Assembly (NCBI GenBank): GCA_031291305.1
Contig: JARLJH010000040.1
Location: 62,001-126,000, forward strand
DNA from: Rhodoferax sp.
Lineage (GTDB): Bacteria; Pseudomonadota; Gammaproteobacteria; Burkholderiales; Burkholderiaceae_C
DNA: 64,000 nucleotides
Direction: 5' to 3'
The notes below the pieces were generated by a model. It saw only the letters and a program-made list of their open reading frames with translations. It did not search any database and was not told the DNA's origin. Shown here one piece after another: positions 217-61,724 of the stretch. The translations under genes were made by a program, and so were the position numbers. The first letter of the stretch is position 1, and each line of letters opens with the position of its first letter.

Positions 217-2673
217 ATGAACGCCCCTGTTGACGTGTCTTTTTTCCCGCGCGCGGCCAAACCGCTGACCAGTTACCGCAAGTTCTGGGCGGCGCGCTTT
301 GGCACGGCACCGCACCTGCCCATGAGCCGCGCCGAGATGGACAAACTGGGCTGGGACAGCTGCGACATCGTGCTGGTCACCGGCGATGCCTATGTGGACC
401 ACCCGAGTTTTGGCATGGCGGTGATAGGCCGCATGCTGGAGGCCCAGGGTTTTCGCGTCGGCATCATCGCCCAGCCCGACTGGCAAAGTGCCGAGCCGTT
501 TCGGGCTTTGGGCAAACCCAACCTGTTCTGGGGCGTGACGGCTGGCAACATGGACAGCATGATCAACCGCTACACGGCAGATCGCAAAATTCGCACCGAT
601 GACGCCTACACGCCCGGCGATGTGGGTGGCAAGCGGCCCGACCGCGCGGCCATCGTCTACAGCCAGCGTTGCCGCGAAGCTTTCAAGGAGGTGCCCATCA
701 TTCTGGGTGGCATCGAAGGCAGCCTGCGTCGCATTGCCCATTACGACTATTGGAGCGACAAGGTGCGCCGCAGCATTGTGGTGGACGCCAAGTGCGACCT
801 GCTGTTGTACGGCAATGCCGAGCGCGCCCTGGTCGAGGTGGCACATCGTTTGGCAGCACGTGAGCCAATCGAGACCATCACCGATGTGCGTGGCACCGCC
901 TTTGTGCGTCGGTCAGATGACGACAGCCGCCTGAGCTGGTTCGAGATCAACTCCACCAGCGTCGATGAGCCGGGCCGCATCGAGTCGCACATCAACCCAT
1001 ACCAGACCACCTCTGAACAAGCGGCAGGGCAGGGCAGCAATTGCGCCAAGGAAGACGCGGCTGTGAATCAGAATACTGCAGATTCTGTAGCTGTCAGCCC
1101 AGAAGATATCAGGGCTAGAGGCCAATTTTCCTTAAGAAATGTAGACAAGCCGGAGGCCACTGCCAGCACCCAGCCATTGACCTTTTACGCCAACCCGGCG
1201 CTGTCCAGCAGCCCGTCCAAGCTCAAAGTGCCGCCGCGCGAGCGCTCGGTGATCCGCCTGCCCAGTTACGAGCAGGTCAAGGCCGACCCGGTGCTCTACG
1301 CCCATGCCAACCGGGTTCTGCATCTGGAAACCAACCCTGGCAACGCGCGCGCCCTGGTGCAGGCGCACGGTGATGGCGCCACAGCGCGTGATGTCTGGAT
1401 CAACCCGCCGCCGATCCCGCTCACCACAGCGGAAATGGACTACGTGTTTGACCTGCCGTATGCGCGGGCGCCACACCCGAGCTACGCCGATGAGCACGGC
1501 AGCCATGACGGCGCCACCAAGATTCCGGCCTGGGAGATGATCCGTTTTTCGGTCAACATCATGCGCGGCTGCTTTGGCGGCTGCACGTTTTGCAGCATCA
1601 CCGAGCATGAAGGCCGCATCATTCAGAGCCGCTCGGAAGACTCGATCATCAAAGAGATCGAAGACATCCGCGACAAGGTCAAAGGCTTTACCGGCACGAT
1701 TTCCGACCTCGGCGGGCCAACAGCCAATATGTACCGCCTGGGCTGTAAAAGCCCACAGATCGAAGCCGCGTGCCGCAAGCCGAGCTGCGTGTTCCCCGGC
1801 ATCTGCAGCAACCTGGGCACCGACCACCAACCGCTGATCGCCATTTACCGGCGTGGTCGCGCGCTCAAGGGCATCAAGAAGATTTTGATTGGCTCCGGCG
1901 TGCGCTACGACCTGGCTGTGCAAAGCCCCGAATACGTGAAAGAACTGGTGCAGCACCATGTGGGCGGCTACCTGAAGATCGCGCCGGAACACACCGAATC
2001 CGGCCCCTTGTCCAAGATGATGAAGCCCGGCATCGGCACCTACGACAAGTTCAAAACGCTGTTCGACAAATTCACCGCAGAGGCGGGCAAAAAGCAGTTC
2101 CTGATCCCGTACTTCATCGCCGCCCACCCCGGTACCACCGATGAAGACATGATGAACCTGGCGATCTGGCTCAAGAAAAACGGTTTTCGCGCCGACCAGG
2201 TACAAACCTTCTACCCCAGCCCAATGGCCACCGCCACCGCCATGTACCACACCGGGCGCAACCCACTGCGCGGCGTGCGCCGCGAGGTGCAGGGCGATGA
2301 TGAGACGGTGGATGTGGTGCGCGGCGACAAACGCCGGCGCCTGCACAAGGCCTTCTTGCGCTATCACGATGCAAGCAACTGGCCCTTGCTGCGCGAGGCC
2401 TTGAAGGCGATGGGGCGTGCAGATTTGATCGGCAACGGCAAACACCACCTGATTCCGGCCTGGCAGCCGCTGGCTGATGCGGGCTATACCAGTGCGCGCA
2501 AGAAGAATTCCACGCCTTCAGGCTCGAAAGCTGAAGCGCGGGACACGGCTCAACCTGCTTCCAGGGCTGTGACCAAACCCGTGAAGGGCCAAGTGTTGAC
2601 GCAACACACCGGGCTGCCACCACGCGCGGGGGTCAAGGCACCCAAAAACTACAACAACCATCGACCACGTTGA
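217..2673 (+). CDS. ygiQ: YgiQ family radical SAM protein
   Basis: Protein of about 818 residues from the ATG at 217; a GTG two codons upstream (211) is also possible. An N-terminal YgiQ-specific domain is followed by a radical SAM core whose CxxxCxxC cluster motif is Cys452, Cys456 and Cys459 ([10 protein letters not shown]), the ligands of the 4Fe-4S cluster that cleaves S-adenosylmethionine. The C-terminal tail is Lys/Ala/Pro-rich. The family is conserved across bacteria but its substrate is not established. Residues about 285-325 form a low-complexity linker between the domains; part of it (nt 1086-1129) is a copy of the dispersed palindromic repeat read in frame. It stands alone, convergent with the downstream cyclase gene. 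Family assignment is firm; the reaction is unknown. Confidence 0.93.
1086..1129 (+). repeat. Dispersed palindromic repeat, copy inside ygiQ
   Basis: TAGCTGTCAGCCC at 1088-1100 faces AGGGCTAGAGGCCA at 1111-1124, the same left arm/right arm/T-rich tail order as the near-perfect copy at 13161-13201. It is read in frame and encodes about 14 residues of the YgiQ inter-domain linker. The arms have diverged from each other. Confidence 0.55.
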
Positions 2674-2719
2674 TCAGGCGGTATGCCGCAACCGGGCATC
2701 AGTGCGTCGGTTTGTGGTG

Positions 2720-7606: not shown

Positions 7607-8350
7607 ATGTCGTTGTATCACCTGACTCGTGAAAGAGATGTCTTGAAGAACTTGAAGATAATCATAGCAAGCATTGCTCTATTTACCTGGGCTGGGACCT
7701 GTTTTTCTGAGAACATTTCGCCATCGCTTCCTCTGCATCGGGTGAATTTGTCTGCCCGTGCCAGTGTGCAGGTAGTCCAAGACCTGCTGACCATGACACT
7801 CACCACCGTGCGTGAAGGCGCAGATGCGCAGGCGGTGCAAGCCCAGCTCAAAAGTGCGTTGGATGCCGCCTTGATAGTGGCAAAAAAAGATGCCCGACCC
7901 AAGCTCATGGATGTTCATACTGGTCGCTTTGGTCTGGCACCCCGTTACGGCCGTGACGGCAAAATCACCGGCTGGCAGGGCACCGCTGAACTGGTGCTGG
8001 AGGGGCAGGATTTTGTGCGGATCAGCGAGACCGCTGGCAAGCTCACCACCCTGACGGTGGCCAATGCCAGCTTTGGTTTGACACAAACGCAGCGCGATGG
8101 CGCGCGAGCGCAGGCGCAGGATCAGGCAATTGCACTGTTTCGTCAGCGTGCCGCCGAGATAGCCAAGCGATTTGACTTTGGCAGCTACGCGCTAGTTGAG
8201 GTGAGTGTCAATGACGACGAAGGCGCGCCGTTCTACCAGCCGAAGATGATGGCCGCACGCGCTGTCGGCTTGGACACCGCGCCTGTGCCCGTCGAGGCGG
8301 GTCTAACCTCGGTGTCGGTCACAGTCTCAGGCTCTGTACAGCTCCAATGA
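7607..8350 (+). CDS. SIMPL domain-containing (DUF541) exported protein
   Basis: About 247 residues from the ATG at 7607. A TTG at 7643 is a credible alternative: it follows GAAAGAGA at a suitable distance and would begin directly with a signal peptide (KNLKIIIASIALFTWAGTCFS). The mature part matches the SIMPL/DUF541 fold, with a C-terminal VSVTVSGSVQL strand typical of the family. These are periplasmic or membrane-attached proteins of poorly defined role. The stop overlaps the kinase gene start by ATGA (8347-8350), so the two are co-translated, an uncommon pairing. Divergent from ompR. Confidence 0.75.
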   Translation: MSLYHLTRERDVLKNLKIIIASIALFTWAGTCFSENISPSLPLHRVNLSARASVQVVQDLLTMTLTTVREGADAQAVQAQLKSALDAALIVAKKDARPKLMDVHTGRFGLAPRYGRDGKITGWQGTAELVLEGQDFVRISETAGKLTTLTVANASFGLTQTQRDGARAQAQDQAIALFRQRAAEIAKRFDFGSYALVEVSVNDDEGAPFYQPKMMAARAVGLDTAPVPVEAGLTSVSVTVSGSVQLQ

Positions 8351-10835: not shown

Positions 10836-10877
10836 TGGCTGTAGCCCTTTTTTCATAAGGGTTGTCTACTATTGAAT
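10836..10877 (+). repeat. Dispersed palindromic repeat, intergenic copy before the GNAT gene
   Basis: AGCCCTT (10843-10849) and AAGGGTT (10857-10863) form the stem around TTTTCAT. The downstream end runs into the GGAG ribosome site of the GNAT gene (10880-10883). Confidence 0.65.
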
Positions 10878-13090: not shown

Positions 13091-13158
13091 TTCTGGGACG
13101 GGCAGCGGGGGTCGTGGCGGCGCTTTCGCTGTTGTTGGGTAGACTGGTTGCTGTGATT

Positions 13159-13205
13159 TCAATAGCTTCTAGCCCTTTACTTATAAGGGCTAGAAGCTAT
13201 TTTCA
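13159..13205 (+). repeat. Dispersed palindromic repeat, best-preserved copy
   Basis: Perfect 17-base arms: AATAGCTTCTAGCCCTT (13161-13177) and AAGGGCTAGAAGCTATT (13185-13201), loop TACTTAT, then a T-rich tail. It serves as the reference copy for the other members. It may also end transcription of the CoA-transferase gene. Confidence 0.85.
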
Positions 13206-13246
13206 TTTGAGATCTCAAGACAATCATCAACGCAACCCAGGGCGAG

Positions 13247-13537
13247 TTGGTTGCGGCCGACACCTCGGATGGGCCGGTTTTCGACGGGCTCAATCGGCAG
13301 GATGAATCGTTGTCAACTCGTGGATTCTGGTCGAATCTGAGTTCCGGCTTGAAGGTATCCACAACCCGAACGCTCAGAACCGTTGTCATCGCTATGCAAG
13401 CTGATGTCTGCCGCGCTTGCCAGCCAAGCGGACCTTCGATAGAAATGTCCTCAAAGGCCACAACTGCCGAAGTGCGGCTGAAGGTGAGTGCTCGGGACTT
13501 GATTTCGTTCCAGGAGAGCGGCTTGGAAAATATATAA
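13247..13537 (+). CDS. Unrecognised small ORF between two repeats
   Basis: A 96-codon frame with a TTG start and no clear ribosome site; the frame stays open a little upstream (TIINATQGELVAADT). I do not recognise the product; it has no membrane segment and contains a CRAC motif. The 518-base gap it lies in, between two convergent metabolic genes, is flanked by a dispersed repeat copy on each side in opposite orientation. It could be a gene remnant or non-coding. An overlapping minus-strand frame (13177-13461) is equally long, so coding is unproven. Confidence 0.2.
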   Translation: MVAADTSDGPVFDGLNRQDESLSTRGFWSNLSSGLKVSTTRTLRTVVIAMQADVCRACQPSGPSIEMSSKATTAEVRLKVSARDLISFQESGLENI

Positions 13538-13584
13538 AAAATCGGGCTTTAGCCCTTGTTTTATCTGAGCTGGTAGCTTCCAAG
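13537..13584 (-). repeat. Dispersed palindromic repeat, reverse-oriented copy
   Basis: Read on the minus strand it follows the family order: AGCTACCAGCTC, spacer, AAGGGCTAAAGCCCGATTTTT. It contains a small perfect hairpin GGGCT-TT-AGCCC at 13544-13555. It lies 24 bases past the bdhA stop codon and could act as that gene's terminator. Confidence 0.65.
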
Positions 13585-13608
13585 AATATAGCGCTGGCGC
13601 TGGCGTGC

Positions 13609-15422: not shown

Positions 15423-17666
15423 ATGAGAAGTACAGCAATCGATGTGACAGCCCCTGAGGCTGTCGATAAACCGGTTTTGCCGGTGGTGGCCGCCATCGCG
15501 CAAAGCCTGCCTGAGCATCCGCAAGCGCTGACGCGTGCGCGCGCCTTTGCCGAGCCGCTGCTGTCCTGCGAAACGCTGGACACTGGCGAAAACACGCTGG
15601 CCCATGCCGATGCGGTGGCCGTCATCCTGAAACACATTGGTGGTTCGGAGGCCATGCAGGCCGCCAGTTACCTGGTCTATGCCTGCGACCACCTGTACAA
15701 ACCGCAAGAGGTGATTGCCAAGGCCTTTGGCGACAATTTTGCCGCTCTGGCGATGGAAACCACCAAGCTGGTGCGGGTACAACGCCATACGCGCCAAGCC
15801 AAGGCAGCCCGCCCCGTGGCGCCTGCCGAGACGCCCGCAGAACAGCAGGCTGCGGCGGTTCAGACGGAGAACGTGCGCAAGATGCTGTTGGCGTTTTCAC
15901 GCGACCTGCGGGTGGTGATGCTGCGCCTGGCCTCGCGCCTGCAAACGTTGCGCTTTTTTGCTGCCACCAAGCTGCCGGTGCCGCAGGGTGTGGCGTCAGA
16001 GGCGCTGCAGGTGTTTGCACCCCTGGCCAACCGGCTGGGCATCTGGGAAATCAAGTGGGAGCTGGAAGACCTGGCGTTCCGGTTTCTGGAACCCGATACC
16101 TACAAACAGGTGGCTCGCCTGCTGGACGAAAAACGCGTTGAACGCGAAGCGCATATGGAGCGCATGCGCAGCCAGTTGGATCGCGACCTCAAGGCGCAAG
16201 GCATCGATGCCAAGGTGACGGGGCGACCCAAACACATTTACAGCATCGTCAAGAAGATGCGCGGCAAGTCGCTGGGATTTGAGCAGGTGTATGACATTCG
16301 GGCCATGCGCATTGTGGTGGCCAGCGTGCCCGAGTGTTATGGTGTCCTGAGCTGGGTGCACAACCATTTCACCCCCATTGCTGAGGAGTTTGACGATTAC
16401 ATCGCCAAGCCCAAGGTCAACGGCTACCAGTCCTTGCACACCGTGGTGCGCGACGCGGCCGGGCTGCCCACAGAGATCCAGATACGCACCCAGGCCATGC
16501 ATGATCACGCCGAAAACGGCGTTGCCGCGCACTGGGCCTACAAAGAGGCGGGTGCCAAGGGCTATGCCGGTGTGTCGGCCACAGGCGCCTATGACGCCAA
16601 GATTGCAGTGCTGCGCCAGCTGCTGGCGTGGGAGCGCGATCTGTCGGGCGTGCAGACGCAAAACCTGTTGGACGACCGCATTTATGTGCTGACGCCGGAC
16701 GCCAATATCGTCGAGCTGCCGCAGGGTGCCACGGCGGTGGACTTTGCCTACACTGTGCACACCGACCTGGGCCACCGTTGCCGTGGCGCGCGGGTGGACG
16801 GGGCCATGGTGCCGCTGAATACCCCGTTGAAGAACGGTCAAACCGTGGAAGTGACCGCTGCCAAAGAGGGCGGCCCGTCGCGCGACTGGCTCAACCCGGA
16901 ACTGGGCTATCTGGTCAGCCACCGCGCACGCACCAAGGTTCGCGCCTGGTTCAACGCGCTGGCGCAAAGTGAGACCATTGCCAAGGGCCGCGAAGCGGTT
17001 GAAAAGCTGCTGCAGCGCGAGGGCAAGACTGCTGTCAAGCTTGACGATCTGGCGGTGCAACTGGGCTTTGACAATGCCAACGCCTTGTTTGAAGACGTGG
17101 GCAAGGACGAGTTTTCACTGCGTAGCATTGAACAAGTGCTGCGCCCGCCTGAGGCACCTCACTTTGACGCCAATGCGCCGCTGTTGCGCAAACCGCGATC
17201 AGGTGACAACCCTACCAAGGGCGGCTTGCTGGTGGTGGGCGTGGACTCGCTCATGACGCAGATGGCCAAGTGCTGCAAGCCGGCGCCGCCCGATGCGATT
17301 TGTGGCTTTGTCACGCGCGGTAAGGGCGTCAGCGTGCACCGCAAGGACTGCAGCAACCTGCGTGAGATGGTCGCCAAAAATGGTGAGCGCCTGATTGATG
17401 TGGAGTGGGGCGTGACGCAGGTGGCGTCCGGCTCCGTCTATCCTGTGGATGTGGCGGTGCATGCGCAGGACCGCCAGGGCTTGCTGCGCGACATTTCCGA
17501 GGTGTTCACCAAGGAAAAGATGAACGTGATTGGCGTGCAGACCCAGACCATCAAAGGCATTGCCTGGATGACCTTTACCGTCGAGGTGTCGGACTCGGGG
17601 CGCCTGAACAAGGTGCTGGGCCTGGTGGCCGAGCTGCCCGGCGTGAATTCCGCACGTCGCAAGTAA
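15423..17666 (+). CDS. relA: GTP pyrophosphokinase RelA, (p)ppGpp synthetase I
   Basis: About 747 residues from the ATG at 15423, which has AGGGA 11 bases upstream; a GTG at 15414 is too close to that site. The N-terminal pseudo-hydrolase domain lacks the HDxxED motif (YLVYACDHL stands where LLHDVVED would be). The synthetase domain carries EFDDYIAKPKVNGYQSLHT with the acidic ExDD signature near residues 322-325, which marks monofunctional RelA rather than SpoT (RxKD). TGS, a zinc-finger-like segment (CCKPAPPDAICGF) and a C-terminal ACT domain follow. It makes (p)ppGpp on stalled ribosomes. A dispersed repeat begins immediately after the stop codon. Confidence 0.93.
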   Translation: MRSTAIDVTAPEAVDKPVLPVVAAIAQSLPEHPQALTRARAFAEPLLSCETLDTGENTLAHADAVAVILKHIGGSEAMQAASYLVYACDHLYKPQEVIAKAFGDNFAALAMETTKLVRVQRHTRQAKAARPVAPAETPAEQQAAAVQTENVRKMLLAFSRDLRVVMLRLASRLQTLRFFAATKLPVPQGVASEALQVFAPLANRLGIWEIKWELEDLAFRFLEPDTYKQVARLLDEKRVEREAHMERMRSQLDRDLKAQGIDAKVTGRPKHIYSIVKKMRGKSLGFEQVYDIRAMRIVVASVPECYGVLSWVHNHFTPIAEEFDDYIAKPKVNGYQSLHTVVRDAAGLPTEIQIRTQAMHDHAENGVAAHWAYKEAGAKGYAGVSATGAYDAKIAVLRQLLAWERDLSGVQTQNLLDDRIYVLTPDANIVELPQGATAVDFAYTVHTDLGHRCRGARVDGAMVPLNTPLKNGQTVEVTAAKEGGPSRDWLNPELGYLVSHRARTKVRAWFNALAQSETIAKGREAVEKLLQREGKTAVKLDDLAVQLGFDNANALFEDVGKDEFSLRSIEQVLRPPEAPHFDANAPLLRKPRSGDNPTKGGLLVVGVDSLMTQMAKCCKPAPPDAICGFVTRGKGVSVHRKDCSNLREMVAKNGERLIDVEWGVTQVASGSVYPVDVAVHAQDRQGLLRDISEVFTKEKMNVIGVQTQTIKGIAWMTFTVEVSDSGRLNKVLGLVAELPGVNSARRK

Positions 17667-17710
17667 AAACAGCCTGTAGCCCAGGTATAACAAAGGCTAG
17701 TAGCTGCATA
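17665..17710 (-). repeat. Dispersed palindromic repeat between relA and sbcB
   Basis: On the minus strand: TGCAGCTACTAGCCTTTG, spacer, CTGGGCTACAGGCTGTTTTT, matching the family order with a T-rich tail. It begins inside the relA stop codon and ends about 30 bases before the sbcB start. Confidence 0.7.
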
Positions 17711-17740
17711 TTCAGTAGCGAAACACACATTGATGTCTGT

Positions 17741-29719: not shown

Positions 29720-29778
29720 ATCGGGGCTCAAAAAGTACAATCGAGCCAATAGCGTAACGAATTTTTAAAGGAATTCCC

Positions 29779-36844: not shown

Positions 36845-37594
36845 ATGCCGTCTGATTTTTGCGCACCAGTCGAGCCTATCCCGATTTTGGTTTACCACCA
36901 GATTGCAGAGGCTCCGCCCAAGGGGGCTCCGTTTCGCAGCCTGTATGTGTCACCAAAGTCATTTGCGCGGCAGATGCGCTTGCTGAAATGGCTGGGCTAT
37001 CGTGGCCTGTCAATGTCAGCGCTGCTACCTTACCTCAGAGGTGAGAAGCGGGGCAAGGTGTGTGGCATCACGTTTGATGATGGCTTTGTGAACAATCTGG
37101 AGCATGCAATGCCCGTCTTGCACAGTTTTGGATTCTCATCTACGTGCTATAACGTTAGTCAGCGTCTGGGGCAAACCAATGATTGGGACCGAGAAGTTGG
37201 TATTGCACCAGCGCCACTGATGACTTCGGGGCAACTCAAAGAGTGGTTGGCTCACGGGCAAGAGGTGGGTGCCCACACCCGACACCATGTGCATTTGCCG
37301 TTATTGTCTGAGGAAGATTGCGTTCATGAAATAGCCGGCAGCTTGGCGGAGCTTAGGGACGTTTGCCACGTGAATGTGGATCATTTTTGTTATCCCTATG
37401 GCGAGTTCAAGCCGGAGCATGCGGCCATGGTAAAGCGGGCGGGATATTTGACAGCGACGACCACCGAGCGCGCACGTTGCAAGACAGGTGATGATTTATG
37501 GCAGTTGCCACGTGTACCGGTGGTTCGGTCTACCACGCTGCCGGTGTTCTGGCTCAAACTGGCCACAGCTTACGAAGATCGGCGCAGAGATTGA
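36845..37594 (+). CDS. Polysaccharide deacetylase family protein
   Basis: A protein of 249 residues with NodB-type motifs: TFDDGF (catalytic Asp and metal Asp), the metal-binding His pair in GAHTRHHVHLPLL, and CYPYGEF. No signal peptide, so it probably acts in the cytoplasm on a sugar or lipid-linked glycan. It sits 17 bases before a glycosyltransferase gene and opens a surface-glycan block, so a role in LPS core or related glycan modification is inferred. Confidence 0.88.
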   Translation: MPSDFCAPVEPIPILVYHQIAEAPPKGAPFRSLYVSPKSFARQMRLLKWLGYRGLSMSALLPYLRGEKRGKVCGITFDDGFVNNLEHAMPVLHSFGFSSTCYNVSQRLGQTNDWDREVGIAPAPLMTSGQLKEWLAHGQEVGAHTRHHVHLPLLSEEDCVHEIAGSLAELRDVCHVNVDHFCYPYGEFKPEHAAMVKRAGYLTATTTERARCKTGDDLWQLPRVPVVRSTTLPVFWLKLATAYEDRRRD

Positions 37595-37611
37595 ATCAAG
37601 AGGCTGATTGG

Positions 37612-38778: not shown

Positions 38779-39845
38779 ATCCCCACAACATCTTACTCAT
38801 CAAGTCCCACAGCATGGGCATTGGCGATGTCTTGCGCAGTTCTGCTGCCTGGCAGGCTTTGAAGCTGCGCTGGCCAAATGCTAAGCTGCATCTGCTGTTT
38901 TTGAGTCGCCACCCGGGCTATCCCACCGAGCAATTGATACGCGAACATCACTTGCTGGAAAGTGCTCACTTTATCACCGTCACCACGGATGTACCAGGCT
39001 TTGTTGCGAGTCAACGCTTGCCAAGGTCCGTGGTCTACGCGGCCATTGATGAGGTGCTGAAGGGGATCCCGATTGATCTGATCGTCGATTTCGAACCAGG
39101 CGGCATGCGTACCACGCTGCTGACATGGCGACTTGCGCATGAGAAGAAGGCTGAGTCAGTCGGCATCGCGCAGTTTCCGCTACGTCGTTGCTTTTACGAC
39201 CATGCAGCACCTTCAGTTCGGGCCTATTGCAAGCGCAAGAACTTGCCATTGCTCATGGATTACACCGAGAAGGATTTCGTGGCCCTGGTGGCTCTGGGCA
39301 TTGATCGCAAGGACAACAACATCAATCTGCGCGTCAGTCAAGCGGGTCTGGCCTGGCAAAAGGAGCATTTGTCGAGCCAAGATGACTTATTTACGGTGAC
39401 ATTGAATATTGGTTGTGGCACCAACGGCGCCTTGCCTAAACGTCCGCCAATGGCTGCACTCATAGACTGTATGGTGGCACTATATCGTGCTAGACCGTTT
39501 AGGCTGAATCTATCAGGGGCTGATTTTGAAGCCACAGTCAACGCTGATTTCAGGCGAGATTTTTCTATGGCCTTGGGTGAACAAGGTATGTGCTGCGAAG
39601 TGAAGGATTGGGCGGGTCGATGTAGTCTGAGTCAATTAACCGGTTTACTGGGTGCCTCGGGTTTGGTGATCTCCAGCGACTCGGGGCCGTACCACATGGC
39701 GGTTGCACTTGGTGTTCCCACTGTATGCTGGTTCAATTTTGATACGCCGCCGTCCTATCATCGTCAAAAAGGTGTTGCGGTGGCGATCAACCCATCGCCC
39801 GACGATTTTGTAGATGCAGTGCGAAGGGTTTTAGAACTGGCTTAA
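38769..39845 (+). CDS. Glycosyltransferase family 9 (heptosyltransferase-like)
   Basis: A protein of 358 residues; two in-frame ATGs (38769, 38775) both overlap the GT4 stop. GT9 features: the N-terminal ILLIKSHSMGIGDVLRSSAAWQALKLRWPNAKLHLL and the C-terminal GLVISSDSGPYHMAVALGVPTVCWF, with the conserved DSGP-H. It probably transfers heptose or a related sugar to LPS inner core. The 3' end overlaps the convergent msbA gene by 15 bases. Confidence 0.9.
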   Translation: MSMNPHNILLIKSHSMGIGDVLRSSAAWQALKLRWPNAKLHLLFLSRHPGYPTEQLIREHHLLESAHFITVTTDVPGFVASQRLPRSVVYAAIDEVLKGIPIDLIVDFEPGGMRTTLLTWRLAHEKKAESVGIAQFPLRRCFYDHAAPSVRAYCKRKNLPLLMDYTEKDFVALVALGIDRKDNNINLRVSQAGLAWQKEHLSSQDDLFTVTLNIGCGTNGALPKRPPMAALIDCMVALYRARPFRLNLSGADFEATVNADFRRDFSMALGEQGMCCEVKDWAGRCSLSQLTGLLGASGLVISSDSGPYHMAVALGVPTVCWFNFDTPPSYHRQKGVAVAINPSPDDFVDAVRRVLELA

Positions 39846-41558
39846 TCGACGGAAATCCTGATAAGGACCTTCAACATTTTCCAGAGTCTGGTGCGTGCCC
39901 GTTTGTACGATGCGCCCGGCTTGCAGTACCACAATTTTGTCGGCATCCTTCACTGTGGACAGTCGGTGGGCGATGGCGATGGTGGTCCGGCCTATCATGA
40001 TTTTTCGCAATGCATCTTGCACCAGTCGTTCGGTATCTGTATCGAGCGCCGAAGTAACTTCATCAAGTATCAGGATGGGTGCATTCTTGTACATGGCTCG
40101 CGCGATGGCAAGCCTTTGTCGTTCGCCGCCTGAGAGCAGGCTGGCGTTATGTCCAACCGGTGTGTCAATACCTTGTGGAAGTGAATCAATGAACGTTTTA
40201 AGGTTGGCTGCCTCGACACATTCTTGCGCGCGCGCCCGATCTAGTGGTTGTCCCAGAACAATGTTGTTTAGCACACTGTCGTTGAGCATGATGACGCTCT
40301 GACCAACAAAGGCAAACTGCCTGCGCAGAGACTGAATGTTCCATTCGCTTAATTCGATGCCGTCCAGATAGACATGCCCCTTGTCGTAGTTGACGAAACG
40401 TGTCAGAAGCTGTGCCAGTGTGGACTTCCCAGAACCTGAAAGTCCAATCAGCGCGACAAATTCTCCGGGTTTGACGCTTAAACAGATGTCGTTCAACGCA
40501 GGCGCGTCCGCGTTGGGGTAAGTAACTTGAACATGATTCAGCTGAATGGCGCCTGAACATCGGTCGATGTTGAACGCGCCGCTTTCCTCGTCCTTGACGG
40601 TTTCGATCAGGTTCAATGCCCGTTCCATGGCGACGAGTCCACGCGTTACCGTACTGGCCACTTCGGACAAATGTTTGATAGGTGCAATCAACATCAACAT
40701 GGCAGTAATGAAAGCCATGAAGCCACCTGCCGTTAGAGCATGTGCATCGGTCTGAAATAACGCGATGGTGATTACCGCAGATAGAGCTACAGACGCAAAT
40801 ATCTGTGTCATTGGTGTCACTGCCGAACCCGCCATAGCGGATTTCATGGCAATACGCATGATCTGTTCATTTACTTTGGCAAAGCGTTCCGTTTGCTGCG
40901 CTTGCGCGCCCTGGATGCGAATTTCTTTATGAGCCAATACACTTTCCTCCACCACATAGGCCAGCCTGTCCACTTCAGACTGAGCATCTTTGGTCAGCCG
41001 ATACAGTCTTTTGGCAAGGACACGCATTGAAATTGCTATGACTGGAAACAAGCATGCGACGATCAAAGTGAGTTTCCAGTTCAGAAAAAGCAGGTAACCC
41101 AGTAAGGCGATGATCGTGACGCTGTCTTTGACGATGGTGGTGACCGACTGCAGCAACAGGATGGCACCGATGTTGGTTTCGTATACAAGGGTATTGGCCA
41201 GTGCTGTGGCCGGTTGCAGGCGATAAAGCTCCAACTCTGCCAAGGTCACTTTGGCAAACATGCGCGTTCTCAAGGCGTGCAGGCTGGTTTGCGCCACTTT
41301 CGCTAGCGACACGTCGGCAACAAAGGACGCCAGAGAGCGCAGAGAAAAAATGCCGATGAGCACAATCGGTACCAGCCATGGTGGCATCGTGCGTGAAGAA
41401 AAACCACTGTCAAGCAGTGGTTTAAGCAGTGCAGGAATGGTCGGTTCGAGTGCAGAACTCACCAACACCGCCACCCCCGAAGTCAACCAGGCGTACAGCG
41501 GACGTTTGAAATGTGGAAATACCCTCTGGAACCGTTGGATCAGTGCTGTTGGACTCAT
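39831..41558 (-). CDS. msbA: Lipid A export permease/ATP-binding protein MsbA
   Basis: About 575 residues from the ATG at 41558, two bases after the preceding gene's stop codon; the frame is open to 41594. A six-helix ABC exporter membrane domain (to about 320) is followed by an ATPase with Walker A GLSGSGKST, signature LSGGERQRLAIARAM, Walker B LILDEVTSALD and the H-loop AHRLSTV. The pattern LNDSVLNNIVLGQ fits MsbA. It flips lipid A-core across the inner membrane. Encoded with a GT9 enzyme and O-antigen ligase on the minus strand. Confidence 0.92.
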   Translation of the reverse strand: MSPTALIQRFQRVFPHFKRPLYAWLTSGVAVLVSSALEPTIPALLKPLLDSGFSSRTMPPWLVPIVLIGIFSLRSLASFVADVSLAKVAQTSLHALRTRMFAKVTLAELELYRLQPATALANTLVYETNIGAILLLQSVTTIVKDSVTIIALLGYLLFLNWKLTLIVACLFPVIAISMRVLAKRLYRLTKDAQSEVDRLAYVVEESVLAHKEIRIQGAQAQQTERFAKVNEQIMRIAMKSAMAGSAVTPMTQIFASVALSAVITIALFQTDAHALTAGGFMAFITAMLMLIAPIKHLSEVASTVTRGLVAMERALNLIETVKDEESGAFNIDRCSGAIQLNHVQVTYPNADAPALNDICLSVKPGEFVALIGLSGSGKSTLAQLLTRFVNYDKGHVYLDGIELSEWNIQSLRRQFAFVGQSVIMLNDSVLNNIVLGQPLDRARAQECVEAANLKTFIDSLPQGIDTPVGHNASLLSGGERQRLAIARAMYKNAPILILDEVTSALDTDTERLVQDALRKIMIGRTTIAIAHRLSTVKDADKIVVLQAGRIVQTGTHQTLENVEGPYQDFRRLSQF

Positions 41559-41559
41559 G

Positions 41560-42669
41560 CTAAGAAACAAATCTTGGACGCGAAGGTGATGCACTCATCA
41601 GCTGTCTCAACTTATTAACTACATGACTGGCTTCAATGTCATTCACAGAACCAGTCGGACTGACCAGTGCCATATCATGATAATCTCGCGGTAATCTATA
41701 CGCTGGCGGTATGCGCTCGATAAACAGTCCCAAAATTATTTTTACATCGCAGGCCACGCCCAAATGCATTAACCCACCATCTGCACACACTAACATATCG
41801 CAACACGCAAAAATTGTTTTAATGTCATCCAGACTTGTCTGGTTGACTTTGTTTTCGATATCTAAATATGAATTATTTTGCATGATTTTTTGTGCCTGCA
41901 ATTGAGCAATTTCACCAGTACCTGTCAGCGTGATATGGTGTCGCATGTCGTCGCTTAAACCGCTCACAACCTGACTCCAACTCTGATAAGTGCGGACACT
42001 GTCCACGCCACCGAGCGCAAGCACGATACGCAGTCCTTCCTTTCTTGACTGCTGCTTGCAAGCGTCATAGTGAATTTTCTGCTTTCCATGCCATTCAAGT
42101 TGTATTTGTTGTTTTGTCCAGAGATCACTAATTCGCTGCGCACCCCATTGTGCCCTTGAGAAATCAGGTACATCGTAAAACTCCTGGATACAAACCCATG
42201 GCAACGATTTAAAAAATCTAATTTTATGTTTCAATGATCGATGATGGATACTCTGAATAATCACAAAGTCATACTTGTCCCCCAAAGCCTGTTCAGGCGC
42301 CGTGAAGATGTGGCGAAACCATGGATCCTTTTGATAAAGAGGACCTAAGTTCTGCTTGCAAAGTAAATCTACTTCACAACCAAACTCAGAAAATAAGCTT
42401 CTTGCAGCTAGATCCATGAGAGAATCCCCGATTTGCGCGGTTCGTTCGTAAATCCAGAGACCGTGGGTCCATTGTTTATCAGTAACGGTCCTCCGTAACT
42501 TACCTTGTCCAGTCAAAAATAAATAGAGTTTACGCGCCAATAATCTTTTGCCCAAATGTGCAAGCCCTTCGGTTTGAGCATAGTCTGACAGAGCGGGTAC
42601 CGCATGACTCAGCGGTTGGGTGACGATGAGTTTGCCCTGGTTTTCAAGCCAATCTTTAAAGATGCTCAC
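41560..42669 (-). CDS. GT9-like glycosyltransferase
   Basis: A protein of 369 residues with a glycosyltransferase family 9 C-terminus: IFACCDMLVCADGGLMHLGVACDVKIILGLF, the counterpart of the usual NDTGPMHLA motif with Gly-Gly replacing Thr-Gly-Pro. The N-terminal half is divergent (TAQIGDSLMDLAARSLFSEFG). Base composition is more AT-rich than in the flanking housekeeping genes. It overlaps the O-antigen ligase gene by 14 bases and precedes msbA by one base, so the three are co-expressed. The sugar is unknown. Confidence 0.8.
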   Translation of the reverse strand: MSIFKDWLENQGKLIVTQPLSHAVPALSDYAQTEGLAHLGKRLLARKLYLFLTGQGKLRRTVTDKQWTHGLWIYERTAQIGDSLMDLAARSLFSEFGCEVDLLCKQNLGPLYQKDPWFRHIFTAPEQALGDKYDFVIIQSIHHRSLKHKIRFFKSLPWVCIQEFYDVPDFSRAQWGAQRISDLWTKQQIQLEWHGKQKIHYDACKQQSRKEGLRIVLALGGVDSVRTYQSWSQVVSGLSDDMRHHITLTGTGEIAQLQAQKIMQNNSYLDIENKVNQTSLDDIKTIFACCDMLVCADGGLMHLGVACDVKIILGLFIERIPPAYRLPRDYHDMALVSPTGSVNDIEASHVVNKLRQLMSASPSRPRFVS

Positions 42670-43960
42670 ATGCAGATTCCTTTAATACCAAGTTGCTTGC
42701 AACAAAGCTAGTAAATAGAATAAATGTCCAACCCTCCCATTGGTTGTTCAAAGAGGAGTCGGTTAGAGCATTAATCAAGAAAATGGTGATTGCCGCTAAT
42801 GTAGAGTATCTGATTTCCGGGGAATTTATCTGACGCAATCCAACATAAATCTCTCTGAGAAGCCATAAAAAAATCCCCATACCTATCATACCATACAATG
42901 ATAGCATGGTCATATACTCATTGTGTGTGTGGTAGTGATTTTGTGGTACTAGAGGGTCGTTGGATTTGATCAGAAAGTCTCTGAATGCACCCCCGCCTGC
43001 GCCCAATAAAGGGTGTTGAACAAATAAATTCCAACTAATAGCCAAGTAGTGCAAGCGAATTCCACCGGACGTCGTTATATCTGAGTGTGCAAAATAATTA
43101 TGCGCTTCTTTATAAATGGATTCAAGTCGCAATTGAATTGTATTGTTGCTGATGATTAATATTGTACTAAAAAACAATATTCCCAGTGAAGCGAGTATTT
43201 TATTTTTTTTGCTAAAATTCAACAAAAATAATAGTGTGATATAGCTTCCGATTAGACCGATCAATGCCATTCTTCCTTTTATTAGAAATAAAAGGCTAAA
43301 AATTCCAAAGGAAATTCCGATAAGATACAGAAAAACCTTCTTTTTATCATAAATAGAAAAAACAAAAAGAATGGCACAAAAAATAGAAGCCATAAATCCA
43401 TGAACAATCTGATTTCGAAAATAAACAAGATTTCTCCCTTGGTCTGTTACTCGTATATAGCTTTCATTTGCGAAGTTTGCGCCGTCGAATCCAAACCAGT
43501 TGAAAACACCGAAAAAATCCAAATAAGTTGGTAGCATTAGCATAGCCACGCCGCACAAGAATGCTATGATGAGTTGTTTGTAATTGTTTCTACAATACTG
43601 AGTCTGTAAATAAGCAAGGGCTGGAATCATTAGAAGTTTTTCGTACCGCCAGGCTTCATAGGCGTAGAGTGACTGAGGTGCCGCCGTCCAAATCTTTGAA
43701 AGAAGTATCCAGCCTAACAATATCACGGGTAAATAAAGTATTCTTGTATTGTATTTGCTGATATTTATACCAAGATTTCCTGTGTTGATTCTTTGATTTA
43801 TAATGTTAAATATATCCAAGAATAAAATGCAGCATAGTATGAAAATAGAAATTCTGTATAAAGCGCTTGAAAAAGGAATGGCGAAACAGAATGCCAGTAG
43901 CGTGTATTTCGTAATTTTTCTTTTATTGTTCATTGCTCGTTTTGTTTGATTTGATGTCAT
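42656..43960 (-). CDS. O-antigen ligase (WaaL) family membrane protein
   Basis: A protein of 434 residues with about ten to twelve hydrophobic helices and a large periplasmic loop containing the Wzy_C/WaaL signature region (ISWNLFVQHPLLGAGGGAFRDFL... QNHYHTHNEYMTMLSLYG) with conserved His and Arg-type positions. It would join O-polysaccharide to lipid A-core or polymerise it. The gene is strikingly AT-rich, with many A/T runs and AAA/ATT/TTT codons, unlike its neighbours, which suggests horizontal gain. A second ATG lies nine codons in. Confidence 0.85.
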   Translation of the reverse strand: MTSNQTKRAMNNKRKITKYTLLAFCFAIPFSSALYRISIFILCCILFLDIFNIINQRINTGNLGINISKYNTRILYLPVILLGWILLSKIWTAAPQSLYAYEAWRYEKLLMIPALAYLQTQYCRNNYKQLIIAFLCGVAMLMLPTYLDFFGVFNWFGFDGANFANESYIRVTDQGRNLVYFRNQIVHGFMASIFCAILFVFSIYDKKKVFLYLIGISFGIFSLLFLIKGRMALIGLIGSYITLLFLLNFSKKNKILASLGILFFSTILIISNNTIQLRLESIYKEAHNYFAHSDITTSGGIRLHYLAISWNLFVQHPLLGAGGGAFRDFLIKSNDPLVPQNHYHTHNEYMTMLSLYGMIGMGIFLWLLREIYVGLRQINSPEIRYSTLAAITIFLINALTDSSLNNQWEGWTFILFTSFVASNLVLKESACEHL

Positions 43961-48524: not shown

Positions 48525-48600
48525 GGGATGTTAGCTCAGTTGGTAGAGCAGCGGACTTTTAATCCGTTTGTCGTGGGTTCGACCCCCGCACATCCCACCA
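48525..48600 (+). tRNA. tRNA-Lys (anticodon UUU)
   Basis: A 76-base cloverleaf: acceptor GGGATGT/ACATCCC, D-arm GCTC...GAGC, anticodon loop CTTTTAA with TTT at 48558-48560, T-arm GTGGG-TTCGACC-CCCGC, and encoded CCA. A terminator follows. Confidence 0.97.
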
Positions 48601-53973: not shown

Positions 53974-55194
53974 ATGAAAGACCTTGCTGGAAAACACATT
54001 GTTTTAGGCCTGACCGGCGGTATTGCCTGCTACAAGTCAGCGGAGCTGTGCAGACTGTTGATCAAGTCTGGTGCCACCGTGCAGGTGGTGATGACCGCCG
54101 GGGCCGAGCAGTTCATAACCTCGGTCACTATGCAGGCGCTCAGCCAGCGTCCGGTGGTCCTGTCGCAGTGGGATGCGCGCGAGGCCAACAACATGGCACA
54201 CATCAATCTCAGCCGCGAGGCCGATGCTTGCTTGATCGCCCCCTGCAGCGCCGATTTCGTCGCCAAGCTGGCCCACGGTCAGGCCGGTGATTTGCTGAGC
54301 CTGATGTGTCTCGCGCGGCCTGCTAATGCGGTGCCGCTATTGATTGCTCCGGCCATGAATCGTGAAATGTGGGCGCATCCCGCCACTCAGCGAAACATGG
54401 CGCAGGTGGCTGCCGATGGTGCCGTGCTGCTGGGCGTGGGGCGTGGCGATCAGGCCTGCGGTGAAACCGGTGATGGCCGCATGCTGGAGCCGTATGAGTT
54501 GCTGGAAGATCTGATCGCTTTTTTTCAGCCGAAAGTCCTGGCGGACCAACATGTGTTGGTGACTGCCGGGCCGACTTACGAGGCTATCGACCCGGTGCGC
54601 GGCATCACCAATCTGTCCAGCGGCAAGATGGGTTTTGCCATTGCCCGCGCCGCGCGTGAAGCCGGTGCAGAGGTGACGCTGGTGGCTGGCCCAGTCGGTT
54701 TGCCAACGCCTAGGGGTGTGCACCGCGTCGATGTGCGTTCAGCATCAAATATGCTCGCAGCCGTTATGGATACTGCGCCAGTAGCGTCCATTTTTATAGC
54801 GACTGCGGCGGTCGCAGATTGGCGACCCGAGCACGCTTCAGAACAGAAGATCAAGAAGGACGCCTCTGGCGCAACGCCGGTGCTGAGCTTTGTGGAAAAC
54901 CAGGACATCCTGGCGACGCTGGCGCAGTCGCCGCGTGCGCAGAGTGGAGCGTTGTTTTGCGTCGGTTTTGCCGCAGAGAGCCATGATCTGATGGCCAACG
55001 CCCAGGCCAAACGCCTGCGCAAAGGCGTGCCGCTGCTGGTAGGCAACATTGGCCCTGCCACTTTTGGGCGCGATGACAACGCCTTGTTGCTGGTGGATGA
55101 GCGCGGTGTGGTTGAGTTAGCGCGTGACAGCAAGCTTTCTCTTGCTCGTCAATTAATAGCTAATATCGCTTTTAGAATAAGGGCTAGAGACTAA
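53974..55194 (+). CDS. coaBC: Bifunctional phosphopantothenoylcysteine decarboxylase/synthetase
   Basis: A protein of 406 residues from the ATG at 53974. The CoaC half has [14 protein letters not shown], the active-site His in [19 protein letters not shown] and the catalytic Cys in CGETGDGRM. The CoaB half has [42 protein letters not shown] and NDNAL-type ends. It makes 4'-phosphopantetheine for CoA. The last 13 residues and the stop codon (55153-55194) come from a dispersed repeat copy, and a second possible copy lies at 54748-54799. Two bases separate it from dut. Confidence 0.95.
54748..54799 (+). repeat. Possible diverged repeat inside coaBC
   Basis: ATATGCTCGCAGCCGTTATG, spacer, GCGCCAGTAGCGTCCATTTTT follows the family order loosely with a T-rich tail. 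The encoded segment ([20 protein letters not shown]) partly keeps the normal CoaB sequence, so this copy is uncertain. Confidence 0.3.
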
Positions 55195-55196
55195 TA
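55153..55196 (+). repeat. Dispersed palindromic repeat spanning the coaBC end and dut leader
   Basis: TTAATAGCTAATATCGCTTT, spacer, ATAAGGGCTAGAGACTAATA. It supplies the coaBC C-terminus ([13 protein letters not shown]), its TAA stop (55192-55194) and the sequence before the dut ATG, including AAGGG 13 bases upstream, the only ribosome-site-like element there. Confidence 0.7.
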
Positions 55197-55646
55197 ATGC
55201 TTGATATTGACATCAAAATCCTAGATCCACGCCTGGCGGACCAAATGCCTGCTTACGCCACCCCGGGCAGCGCCGGTCTGGATTTGCGCGCCTGCCTGAG
55301 TGAGGCGCTGACTCTGCAGCCCAATGCCTGGCAACTGGTGCCCACGGGAATGGCCATTTATTTGAAAGACCCTGGTTATGCGGCGCTTATCCTCCCGCGT
55401 TCTGGTCTGGGCCACAAGCACGGCATCGTGCTGGGTAATCTGGTGGGGTTGATTGACAGCGATTACCAGGGCCAATTGATGGTGAGCGCCTGGAACCGCA
55501 GTGACGTCGCCTTCACCATCACCCCCATGGAGCGCATCGCCCAACTGGTGGTGGTGCCGGTGATGCAGGCACGTTTTAATCTTGTGGCTGAATTCCCCGC
55601 CAGTGAGCGCGGTGAAAGCGGCTACGGCTCCACGGGCAGGACCTGA
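55197..55646 (+). CDS. dut: Deoxyuridine 5'-triphosphate nucleotidohydrolase (dUTPase)
   Basis: A protein of 149 residues hydrolysing dUTP to dUMP. All five trimeric-dUTPase motifs are seen: [30 protein letters not shown] with the catalytic Asp, [11 protein letters not shown], and the flexible C-terminal [12 protein letters not shown]. It follows coaBC by two bases, as in many gammaproteobacteria and betaproteobacteria. Confidence 0.96.
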
Positions 55647-57801: not shown

Positions 57802-57890
57802 TCAACTGTTTGAGGTGTGCAGGATTTGACTTGGAGCAAGTTACATAATTAATAACTTATATTATATGGGGCCTTTTTGAGGTGTAACTC

Positions 57891-59174
57891 ATGTTGACCA
57901 TTCTCTCAATCGTTTTTGTTTTGGCTTATGTGTCAATCGCGCTGGAGCATCAGATCAGCGTTAACAAATCTGCCACAGCGCTGATTGGCGCGGGTTTGTT
58001 GTGGACCATTTATGCCATGCTGGCACCTGATGCGGCGCTGGTTGAAGAGCACTTAGGTGCTTCACTGATGTCTACTGCCCAGATCGTGTTTTTCCTGATG
58101 GGGGCCATGACGATTGTCGAAGTTGTCGATGCGCACAACGGTTTCGTCGTGATCACCTCGCGCACCAAGACAACCAAACTCTCAACACTGATGTGGCTGG
58201 TAGGTTTTGTGGCCTTCTTCCTCAGCTCTATTCTGGACAACCTGACGACGACCATCGTCATGGTGTCGTTGATGAAGAAGTTACTGGACAAGCGCGACGA
58301 CCGGCTGTTTTTTGCCGGCATTATTGTGATTGCCGCTAATGCCGGTGGCGCCTGGACGCCCATTGGCGATGTGACCACGACCATGTTGTGGATCGGCGGC
58401 CAGATCACTACGCTGAGCATTATGAAAGCCCTGTTCATTCCATCCATGATCAACCTGCTGGTGCCGCTGGTGGTGACGGCCTACCTGCTGAAGGGTAAGC
58501 CGGTAATTGCACCAGTACGTCAGGAAGATGGTCGGGCCGTGCTGACCAGCAGCTTTGAGAGCAGCCTGATGTTTTTCATGGGTATGGCCATTTTGATGTT
58601 GGTGCCGGTGTTCAAAACCATCACCCATCTGCCGCCTTTCATGGGCATTCTGTTTGGCTTGGGCATCCTGTGGCTGGTCGGCGACCGATTGCACAAAGGC
58701 AAGGCCGACGAGGACAAGAACCATCTGACGATCGGACACGCACTGTCGCGCATCGACATGAGCTCGGTCGTGTTCTTCATTGGCATCCTGTTGGCGGTGG
58801 CCTCGCTGGAGCACACACACATTCTCAGCGCGCTGGCAGACTGGCTGGACAAGACCATTGGCCGTCAGGACATCATCGTGATCGTCATCGGATTGGTGAG
58901 CGCCGTGGTGGACAACGTGCCGTTGGTGGCCTCTTCCATGGGTATGTACAGCATGGCTCAGTTTCCGCATGACAGCTTTTTGTGGGAGTTCGTTGCATAC
59001 TGCGCTGGCACCGGTGGCTCGATATTGATCATCGGCTCTGCGGCTGGGGTGGCTGCCATGGGCCTGGAGAAAATCAATTTCTTCTGGTACATGAAGCGCA
59101 TCAGTGGCCTGGCGTTGATTGGTTATTTTGGGGGGGCGTTGTTTTACATTGCTGAAGCGCATTTGCTGCACTGA
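57891..59174 (+). CDS. nhaD: Na+/H+ antiporter NhaD, first copy
   Basis: An inner-membrane protein of 427 residues with about 12 helices. Typical NhaD/ArsB-superfamily motifs: SILDNLTTTIVMVSLMKKLL, IIVIAANAGGAWTPIGDVTTTMLWIGGQI, ISSVVDNVPLVA-type repeat (VSAVVDNVPLVASSMGMY) and GTGGSILIIGSAAGVAAMG. It exchanges cytosolic Na+ for H+. The next gene is a close paralog, 143 bases downstream. An FNR-like site and an AT-rich stretch lie before it. Confidence 0.92.
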   Translation: MLTILSIVFVLAYVSIALEHQISVNKSATALIGAGLLWTIYAMLAPDAALVEEHLGASLMSTAQIVFFLMGAMTIVEVVDAHNGFVVITSRTKTTKLSTLMWLVGFVAFFLSSILDNLTTTIVMVSLMKKLLDKRDDRLFFAGIIVIAANAGGAWTPIGDVTTTMLWIGGQITTLSIMKALFIPSMINLLVPLVVTAYLLKGKPVIAPVRQEDGRAVLTSSFESSLMFFMGMAILMLVPVFKTITHLPPFMGILFGLGILWLVGDRLHKGKADEDKNHLTIGHALSRIDMSSVVFFIGILLAVASLEHTHILSALADWLDKTIGRQDIIVIVIGLVSAVVDNVPLVASSMGMYSMAQFPHDSFLWEFVAYCAGTGGSILIIGSAAGVAAMGLEKINFFWYMKRISGLALIGYFGGALFYIAEAHLLH

Positions 59175-59317: not shown

Positions 59318-60604
59318 ATGCTGACAGCCCTGATTATTGTTTTTGTTTTGGCCTATGCTGCTATCGCGCTGGAACACCCTCTCAAGATCAATAAATCTGC
59401 CTCTGCGCTGATCGGTACGGGTCTGCTTTGGACCATCTATGCCCTGGCCAGCGGTGATTCGCATCTGGTCAGCGATAACCTGTCCGAGTCGTTGATGAGC
59501 ACCGCACAGATCGTGTTCTTTCTGATGGGGGCAATGACTATCGTCGAAGTTGTTGATGCTCATAACGGGTTTGAAGTCATCACCTCGCGCATCAAGACCA
59601 CCCAACTCTCCACGCTGATGTGGATGGTGGGTTTTGTGTCATTTTTTCTTAGCGCCATTCTGGACAACCTGACCACCACCATTGTCATGGTGTCGCTGAT
59701 GAAAAAGCTGCTTCACAAGCGTGATGACCGGTTGTTTTTTGCAGGCATCATTGTGATTGCGGCCAATGCGGGCGGGGCCTGGACACCGATTGGCGATGTG
59801 ACCACCACCATGCTGTGGATTGGTGGGCAGATCACGGCGCTCAACATCATGAAAGAGTTGTTCATTCCTTCGATGATCAACCTGCTGGTGCCGTTAGCCG
59901 TAACCGCCTTTATCTTGAAGGGCAAAAAGGTTGAGTCGCCTGAAAAGACTGTCAATTTGCACGGACTGGAATCGACGGATTTCGAAAGAAACCTGATGTT
60001 TTTCTTGGGCCTGGCTATTTTGGTGGCGGTGCCCGTGTTTAAGACCATCACCCATCTGCCGCCGTTCATGGGTATCCTGTTCGGTTTGGGGATTTTGTGG
60101 CTGGTGGGCGACGTGCTGCATCGCAACAAATGTGATGAGGATAAAAATCATCTGACCCTGTTGCACGCCCTGTCGAAAATTGACATGGGCTCGATCGTGT
60201 TCTTCATTGGCATTTTGTTGGCGGTGGCTTCGCTAGAGCACACGCACATTCTGACCTCGCTGGCGCAATGGCTGGACCGCACGGTGGGCCGTCAGGACGT
60301 GATTGTGCTGATCATCGGCATGATCAGCGCCATCGTTGACAACGTGCCGCTGGTGGCCGCGTCGATGGGCATGTACGACCTGCAGCAGTTCCCGCCTGAT
60401 ACCTTCCTTTGGGAGTTCATGGCTTACTGTGCCGGAACAGGTGGGTCCATCCTGATCATTGGATCGGCTGCGGGTGTAGCGGCCATGGGGCTGGAAAAAA
60501 TCAATTTCTTCTGGTACGTCAAGCGCATCAGCGGCCTGGCTTTGCTGGGGTATTTTGGCGGTGCCTTGTGGTACATCGTAGAAATGCGGCTGTTCCCGGG
60601 GTGA
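59318..60604 (+). CDS. nhaD: Na+/H+ antiporter NhaD, second copy
   Basis: A protein of 428 residues, alignable end to end with the upstream copy and identical over long stretches, including LDNLTTTIVMVSLMKKLL and ANAGGAWTPIGDVTTTMLWIGGQIT. Differences cluster in the loop near residues 205-225 (ESPEKTVNLHGLESTDFERN here versus IAPVRQEDGRAVLTSSFESS in the first copy) and in the 10-60 region. It has its own ribosome site (GGAACGG). A tandem duplication followed by divergence is the simplest reading. The dehydrogenase gene begins seven bases later. Confidence 0.92.
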   Translation: MLTALIIVFVLAYAAIALEHPLKINKSASALIGTGLLWTIYALASGDSHLVSDNLSESLMSTAQIVFFLMGAMTIVEVVDAHNGFEVITSRIKTTQLSTLMWMVGFVSFFLSAILDNLTTTIVMVSLMKKLLHKRDDRLFFAGIIVIAANAGGAWTPIGDVTTTMLWIGGQITALNIMKELFIPSMINLLVPLAVTAFILKGKKVESPEKTVNLHGLESTDFERNLMFFLGLAILVAVPVFKTITHLPPFMGILFGLGILWLVGDVLHRNKCDEDKNHLTLLHALSKIDMGSIVFFIGILLAVASLEHTHILTSLAQWLDRTVGRQDVIVLIIGMISAIVDNVPLVAASMGMYDLQQFPPDTFLWEFMAYCAGTGGSILIIGSAAGVAAMGLEKINFFWYVKRISGLALLGYFGGALWYIVEMRLFPG

Positions 60605-60611
60605 GCGCGTC

Positions 60612-61592: not shown

Positions 61593-61677
61593 CATCGTAC
61601 TGCGTGAGGGAAATTGCTGTGAAGGCGGCCACTGTGGGCCAGGTGAGCGGCAAGCCTGCTTCTTGGTGACTACATTA

Positions 61678-61724
61678 GTTATAGCTGTTTGTCCTTTATC
61701 AATAAGGGCTAGAGCCCCATTTTC
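61678..61724 (+). repeat. Dispersed palindromic repeat upstream of rmuC
   Basis: ATAGCTGTTTGTCCTTTAT (61681-61699) faces ATAAGGGCTAGAGCCCCATTTT (61702-61723). A good copy, lying in the 209-base gap between the dehydrogenase gene and rmuC; nothing else is recognised in that gap. Confidence 0.75.

Follow-up and report, generated by a model that had tools for sequence, protein, structure and literature searches.

A gapless 64-bp palindromic motif dispersed through Rhodoferax genomes, a candidate genome-wide recognition site

What is the palindromic sequence that recurs between and inside genes in the 64-kb stretch of Rhodoferax DNA analysed here (the window), and are its copies moved from place to place or formed where they stand? 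An earlier note on this DNA had described about eleven copies of a unit of roughly 45 bases and likened them to REP/MITE elements. We followed the sequence through the source genome and its relatives and weighed that likeness against other readings.

The 64-bp unit and its copies

The exact arm RRGGGCTAGAGGC has 71 matches in the whole source genome, compared to none for the same pattern read backwards, and a gapless alignment of 30 of these 71 exact right arms revealed a conserved block from -36 to +27. The motif is a gapless 64 bp, longer than the ~45 bases claimed, with the consensus tGCTAYnnWWWnnRTAGCTnCTaGCCCwt-8-AAGGGCTAGAGGCcaAWWWnnYntATAa, in which a left half (tGCTAYnnWWWnnRTAGCTnCTaGCCC) and a right half (AAGGGCTAGAGGCcaAWWWnnYntATAa) lie about a dyad near position -4. 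The palindrome of the earlier two-arm description was borne out, while the outer elements, GCTAY and WWW on the left and WWW and tATAa on the right, had been overlooked.

An iterated gapless profile, trained on its own matches and cut off at 0.5 over the reversed-sequence maximum of 9.5, yielded 92 matches of 16.9 to 69 bits when run over 464 kb of source-genome DNA, made up of the window and 400 kb from a single contig. All eleven sites listed earlier were recovered, as were matches beyond them, and the dispersed repeat is real. By extrapolation, we estimate ~900-1000 copies in the source genome, where the genome-wide search drew its scores from the best 150 of 1789 candidates. The top-scoring copy of that genome is at G000:C45:22977-23695 and has a second right arm ~700 bp off in the opposite orientation.

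The spacing of the half-sites is rigid: in 833 kb from five genomes, the offset was 0 in 159 of 167 pairs, and reversed sequence contained no paired halves. Unpaired left halves were in excess at >16 bits (35 vs. 4 in reversed sequence), and there were eight unpaired right halves vs. one reversed. Constraint is position-specific, the non-conserved positions being random, and strong coupling was seen only between neighboring positions; the right tract, for instance, tends to be all A or all T. We rejected templated copying between elements, since no two of 81 copies are more than 73% alike and neutral positions show no coupling.

The window holds 15 profile matches (Table 1), comprising the eleven copies listed earlier (39.0 to 64.4 bits), two more starting at 29444 and 7651, and weak ones at 2359 and 43414. 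Two of the eleven, placed earlier at 10836 and 54748, had been assigned the wrong orientation, both being on the minus strand. Of the three that had been called weakest, the copy at 54748 (39 bits) is indeed the lowest of the eleven, but the term does not suit those at 27477 (51 bits) and 33134 (52 bits). No strong copy was found from 34.1 to 54.7 kb of the window. The low-GC region at 36845-43960, which is without a strong copy, carries polysaccharide-type genes (by eye, a deacetylase, glycosyltransferases, an ABC exporter and a ligase-like gene), and the 40-50 kb bin has 48% GC and atypical codons. Tandem CitMHS-family transporter paralogues, 73-83% identical in DNA over the blocks found, occupy 57891-59174 and 59318-60604.

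Table 1. Profile matches in the 64-kb window, with counterparts in other genomes
Position	Strand	Score (bits)	Context	Counterparts and remarks
1074-1137	+	62	within radical-SAM gene 217-2673	outscores all 20000 synonymous recodings
2359-2422	+	18	within radical-SAM gene 217-2673	weak; marginal, yet above the reversed maximum of 9.5
7651-7714	+	27	upstream of called gene 7742-8350	G153: same spacing, 38.6 bits
10822-10885	-	50	intergenic	G153: 49.3 bits, 61 bases between flanks
13149-13212	+	64	intergenic	most perfect palindrome
13530-13593	-	59	intergenic	
17657-17720	-	49	overlaps 3' end of RelA/SpoT-type gene 15444-17666	matching place in G153, G172 and G154, 37.5-46.6 bits
27466-27529	+	51	intergenic	
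29444-29507	+	41	within HerA_C-family gene 28193-29740 (minus strand)	newly listed
33126-33189	+	52	within nadD-type cytidylyltransferase gene 32770-33351	
34067-34130	+	45	within Ala/Lys-rich C-terminal extension of rsfS-type gene 33351-34256, which has long extensions at N- and C-terminus	absent from G121, where the corresponding stretch is 82 bases
43414-43477	-	19	within ORF 42656-43960 (minus strand), absent from gene-caller output	weak; marginal, low-GC stretch
54738-54801	-	39	within coaBC-type flavoprotein gene 53974-55194	
55143-55206	+	53	spans 3' end of gene 53974-55194 and start of next gene (55197)	
61668-61731	+	62	intergenic, upstream of rmuC-type gene	

Motif-rich and motif-poor genomes and the fate of single sites

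The Rhodoferax sample proved bimodal, with 22 of 40 genomes rich in the motif (at least 73 matches, scored among the best 130) and 18 poor (0-19 matches). On a tree built from UvrD in 30 genomes, which has many weak forks, this label needs five changes, and well-supported branches force at least two of them; rich G167 and poor G164 are sisters there with a support of 100/100. The motif extends to other Comamonadaceae, carriers being found in Acidovorax, Simplicispira, Giesbergeria, Comamonas and Polaromonas as well as Rhodoferax, and a model search of a wider family sample (E 1e-4, stricter filters) gave matches in 52 of 150 genomes and 48 of 141 genera. Named genomes contained at least 118 exact-pattern stretches, and among the 80 loci listed, 73 reached at least 29 bits with the complete geometry; one was truncated at the locus end, and six scored negative, five from records outside the group and the sixth from an Acidovorax MAG. 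A whole copy at >25 bits accompanied 12 of 35 exact-pattern stretches on virus-collection contigs, which may mix prophage and host DNA.

We found no replacement motif of comparable strength in ~348 kb of poor G152, where the palindromic pairs were weak (TCAGA(N)20TCTGA at 10 places and GTCAG(N)22CTGAC at 14). Poor G186 has unrelated over-represented palindromic words of its own, CTATT(N)3GTAGG and ATGTA(N)7TACAT, which may be true REP elements, together with seven Y1_Tnp matches and, apparently, a CRISPR-like array.

Three coding sites could be compared between rich and poor genomes. In the linker of a UvrD/PcrA-type helicase (30 loci fetched from the 34 genomes matched), all 16 rich genomes scored 31.7 to 59.7 bits and all 14 poor genomes -30.1 to 6.8 bits, while the lengths of the UvrD tail overlapped (124-143 residues in rich and 106-135 in poor genomes). 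The sisters G167 and G164 have UvrD proteins of equal length, scoring 44.3 and -21.6 bits. At the HerA_C site (29444-29507), 24 of 26 fetched loci could be aligned without a gap. Of the 18 rich genomes, 15 reached at least 16.9 bits and the remaining three scored 7.6, -12.6 and -32.1, and all six poor genomes were below 0; the HerA_C-family protein covers the full length of its Pfam model, from which it differs by a net four residues. For nadD, found at 24 of 30 loci, protein length was equal in 23 and five residues greater in poor G169, although the scores overlapped (13.9 to 55.0 bits in 15 rich and -11.7 to 32.8 bits in nine poor genomes). Because the proteins of motif-poor relatives are equal or nearly equal in length, no 64-bp insertion occurred at these three sites, and because proteins of the same length carry the motif mostly in rich genomes only, the sites arise and decay by substitution. 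Judged from these alignments, coding-site copies are, where traceable, products of point changes in place and not of jumping, which contradicts the REP/MITE reading at the three sites, and we infer that they represent most copies.

Of 29 coding copies, as defined by a simple gene caller, 26 outscored all 20000 synonymous recodings, and three were reached by 2 of 20000. The median z of 5.4 is inflated by selection of the sites on score; the reversed control contained no match at that level.

Genomes were also compared at matching places. Among rich genomes, the copy was in place at a spacing of 64 ±6 in 116 of 146 comparisons, which are not independent of one another, and lacking in 17, always at changed spacing; 19 of 23 rich-poor comparisons, mainly at two loci, lacked the copy at unchanged spacing. 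Since none of the 17 rich-rich absences occurred at unchanged spacing, the evidence for in-place loss comes chiefly from a few loci compared with poor genomes. The spacer before a gene whose product starts MQEDILINW, which we take to be ribonuclease G-like, contains a copy in G172, G154, G121 and G161 and is ~30-60 bases shorter in G000, G153, G180, G184 and G160. Insertion or deletion is possible there because the spacer is shorter where the copy is absent, and this one intergenic site is compatible, as far as spacer lengths tell, with mobility of some copies. In the comparison of empty orthologous sites proposed in the earlier note, three coding sites change without insertion and one spacer fits it.

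Candidate readers, pairing and placement

If the copies were REP-like or MITE-like mobile repeats, they would be moved by a REP-associated tyrosine transposase (RAYT). The source genome does encode a protein that matches REP_Tyr_transpos (88.2 bits; cut-off 80), outside the window at L131:9108-9803, where the gene adjoins one that we named by eye as glutamate synthase. A motif copy overlaps the 3' end of the RAYT gene, with copies at the matching place in G121, G180 and G184. The RAYT model was applied to the source-genome protein and the other genomes were assessed by Y1_Tnp family, whose members, IS200 types included, occur in 39 of 40 genomes. A RAYT, whose linkage the earlier note had proposed to test, therefore exists, but the transposase family does not distinguish rich from poor genomes, and an uninterrupted 235-residue relative occurs in poor G160. 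The longer spacer and the changed spacing at all 17 rich-rich absences speak for mobility as well; against it stand the in-place change at three coding sites, the random positions between conserved ones with a best pair only 73% alike, and arms that do not covary. We consider mobile repeats an unlikely explanation overall.

Candidate genes of DNA uptake did not track the motif either. ComEC is present in both classes of genome (39 of 40 in all), and the single genome without a match, G171, is rich. A ComP_DUS-type pilin was found in 34 of 40 genomes, including all 18 poor ones, and was missing from six rich genomes (G157, G159, G161, G168, G173 and G179), among them G161, which is listed as 100% complete. 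Because it occurs in every poor genome and is missing in six rich ones, it is improbable that this pilin reads the motif. As determinants, Y1_Tnp/RAYT, ComEC and the ComP_DUS-type pilin were all rejected, since none separates rich from poor genomes.

A palindrome flanked by T/A runs also recalls bidirectional transcription terminators or structured RNA elements, and the excess of copies in convergent spacers (13 vs. 3 in divergent ones; spacers of 40-600 bp total 4.4 kb and 9.2 kb, respectively) would fit terminators. However, standard pairs make up 68.2% in the main palindrome vs. 67.2% in shuffles and 75.1% vs. 74.7% in the upstream palindrome, and neither palindrome showed covariation between pairing columns, contrary to the hairpin conservation considered earlier. 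The tolerance for coding sequence noted before was confirmed: 28 of 81 copies lie wholly within called genes, with no preference of strand (14 same, 13 opposite). We did not find the pattern of an intrinsic terminator, a conserved RNA hairpin and U run downstream of genes in the sense orientation, and the sole Rfam match in the window is a tRNA gene (48525-48597). A hairpin or RNA element was rejected on these grounds, and terminators or structured RNAs seem to us very improbable. As the arms do not covary, the palindrome is more readily understood as duplex DNA than as a hairpin, and duplex DNA looks like the target of recognition.

Copies are spaced in a nearly Poisson fashion (CV 1.14 on the contig and 1.03 for the best 150 matches on the complete G121 chromosome), with no periodicity on either. 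The orientation bias raised in the earlier note is absent, strands being divided 39 to 29 on the contig and 69 to 81 on the G121 chromosome, and there was no strand pattern by chromosome half; an apparent skew of 16 to 4 in a smaller G121 count vanished with 150 matches. Around that chromosome, uniformity of the best 150 is borderline (KS p 0.052). Copies are denser where codon usage is more typical (rho 0.49, p 0.0005, 46 bins). In a scan of the R. ferrireducens T118 plasmid alone, 250 of its 257 kb contained nothing above 14.3 bits, which, like the codon trend, would agree indirectly with scarcity in foreign DNA. A plasmid BLAST with one copy as query, a search too insensitive to carry weight, gave chance-level matches; G172, a conspecific of T118 by name, is motif-rich.

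Known systems and a proposed explanation

Like REP elements and REPINs, the Rhodoferax motif is palindromic, has hundreds of copies and is accompanied by a RAYT with a copy at its 3' end. It differs from them in its in-place change within coding sequence, its rigid 64 bp, its lack of arm covariation and a transposase family that does not track copy number. REP/RAYT elements carry a GTAG/GGAG head tetranucleotide. HIP1 of cyanobacteria is a short octamer palindrome kept in place genome-wide, coding sequence included; by description, both are in-place palindromes, one an octamer and the other 64 bp.

Uptake signal sequences (USS) with their AT tracts span about 30 bp, so that the Rhodoferax motif is about twice their length. 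It is also palindromic, where the known USS and DNA uptake sequences (DUS) are short and non-palindromic with a core of 9-12 bp, and the competence genes tested (ComEC and the ComP_DUS pilin) do not track it. Given its length, its symmetry and the lack of a tracking competence gene, we do not file it as a member of USS/DUS. USS of Pasteurellaceae and DUS of Neisseriaceae likewise have very many coding and non-coding copies and lineage dialects, according to the sections of PMC7811141, PMC1939737 and PMC3630211 considered here. The H. influenzae USS is described in an excerpt of PMC7811141 as evolving by point mutation, its copies being sequences that "are not inserted elements," and the same excerpt holds that rigid AT tracts matter or are preferred in Pasteurellaceae. 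Passages of PMC1939737 state that uptake sequences show neither orientation bias nor regular spacing and concentrate where DNA is under weak constraint. The Rhodoferax motif shares with the USS and DUS of those excerpts the evolution by point mutation (at three coding sites), the AT tracts, the absence of orientation bias and the irregular spacing.

Searches of open-licence papers gave no description of the 64-bp unit. Two spaced pairs left unexplained in the excerpted text of PMC5217627, ATAGCT(N)22CAAAAG in Polaromonas naphthalenivorans (125 copies) and GCTTAT(N)5AAGCG in Acidovorax ebreus (114 copies), come from the same bacterial group, have similar half-site words and are mostly intergenic, some being genic. 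That text gives no 64-bp extension, evolutionary test or function for them, and the spacer is 22 compared to 30 in the Rhodoferax motif; going by these words, the pairs are possibly partial sightings of it. The 140 motif pairs that the same excerpt reports in R. ferrireducens T118 (PMC5217627) were set aside as support because T118 has a 5.7-kb CRISPR array, as given in part of PMC2755013. The beta-proteobacterial repeat element (BRE) occurs in Rhodoferax, Polaromonas and Acidovorax, with some genic copies, and is described in the available portion of PMC3110155 as ~90 bp, GC-rich (69%) in Bordetella and often tandem, with four copies in R. ferrireducens. That description sets it apart from the Rhodoferax motif, which is 64 bp and rich in A/T tracts (PMC3110155).

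A genome-wide recognition system probably acts in the source genome. Each copy would be a rigid 64-bp duplex recognition site in which two inverted half-sites, unequal and with A/T tracts to either side, are read as double-stranded DNA by a protein machine; we infer that a single protein system reads all sites. Point substitutions would create and maintain sites genome-wide, in spacers and in codons able to bear them, and sites would decay where the recognition system is lost. By analogy with uptake signals, we tentatively favor, as something a little short of probable, a driver in which motif-bearing DNA is preferentially taken up by the cell and, through recombination, draws partial matches closer to the motif (molecular drive). 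The motif holds ~44 bits (0.665 × 66), whereas by simple arithmetic ~13 bits would address ~1000 sites, which would favor drive over ordinary site-by-site selection. It is conceivable, though we hold it with some reserve, that this is the longest known drive-maintained recognition motif, a bent two-armed 64-bp duplex site read genome-wide by a dedicated machine; such a machine would perhaps be an uptake pore admitting DNA in the form of a kinked loop, or else a chromosome-organizing complex. With the same reserve, and as part of that proposal, Rhodoferax lineages may have lost or gained the motif repeatedly, ~1000 sites decaying by substitution after a loss.

A close rival to the uptake-like reading is an intracellular chromosome-organizing protein of nucleoid type, wrapping or bridging the DNA, with each site kept by ordinary selection. 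The rigid geometry, the A/T tracts, the lack of arm covariation, the in-place change, the maintenance of copies at matching places, the spread around a complete chromosome and the lack of a strong match on the plasmid would all suit such a protein. On the other hand, selection would have to act on ~1000 individual sites, many of them in codons, the information far exceeds what addressing needs, and neither periodic spacing nor a strand pattern by chromosome half was seen. We regard a chromosome-organizing protein as a serious but somewhat doubtful possibility.

Motifs kept in place genome-wide are known mainly from two bacterial families, in which they mark self DNA for uptake. If the Rhodoferax motif is of the uptake type, it would add a third family, of freshwater and soil bacteria, with a far longer, palindromic site, and would widen the question of why uptake is biased at all. 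If it is not, it would point to a DNA-binding machine with ~1000 chromosomal sites. The sisters G167 and G164, one rich and one poor, offer a natural experiment for finding the gene involved.
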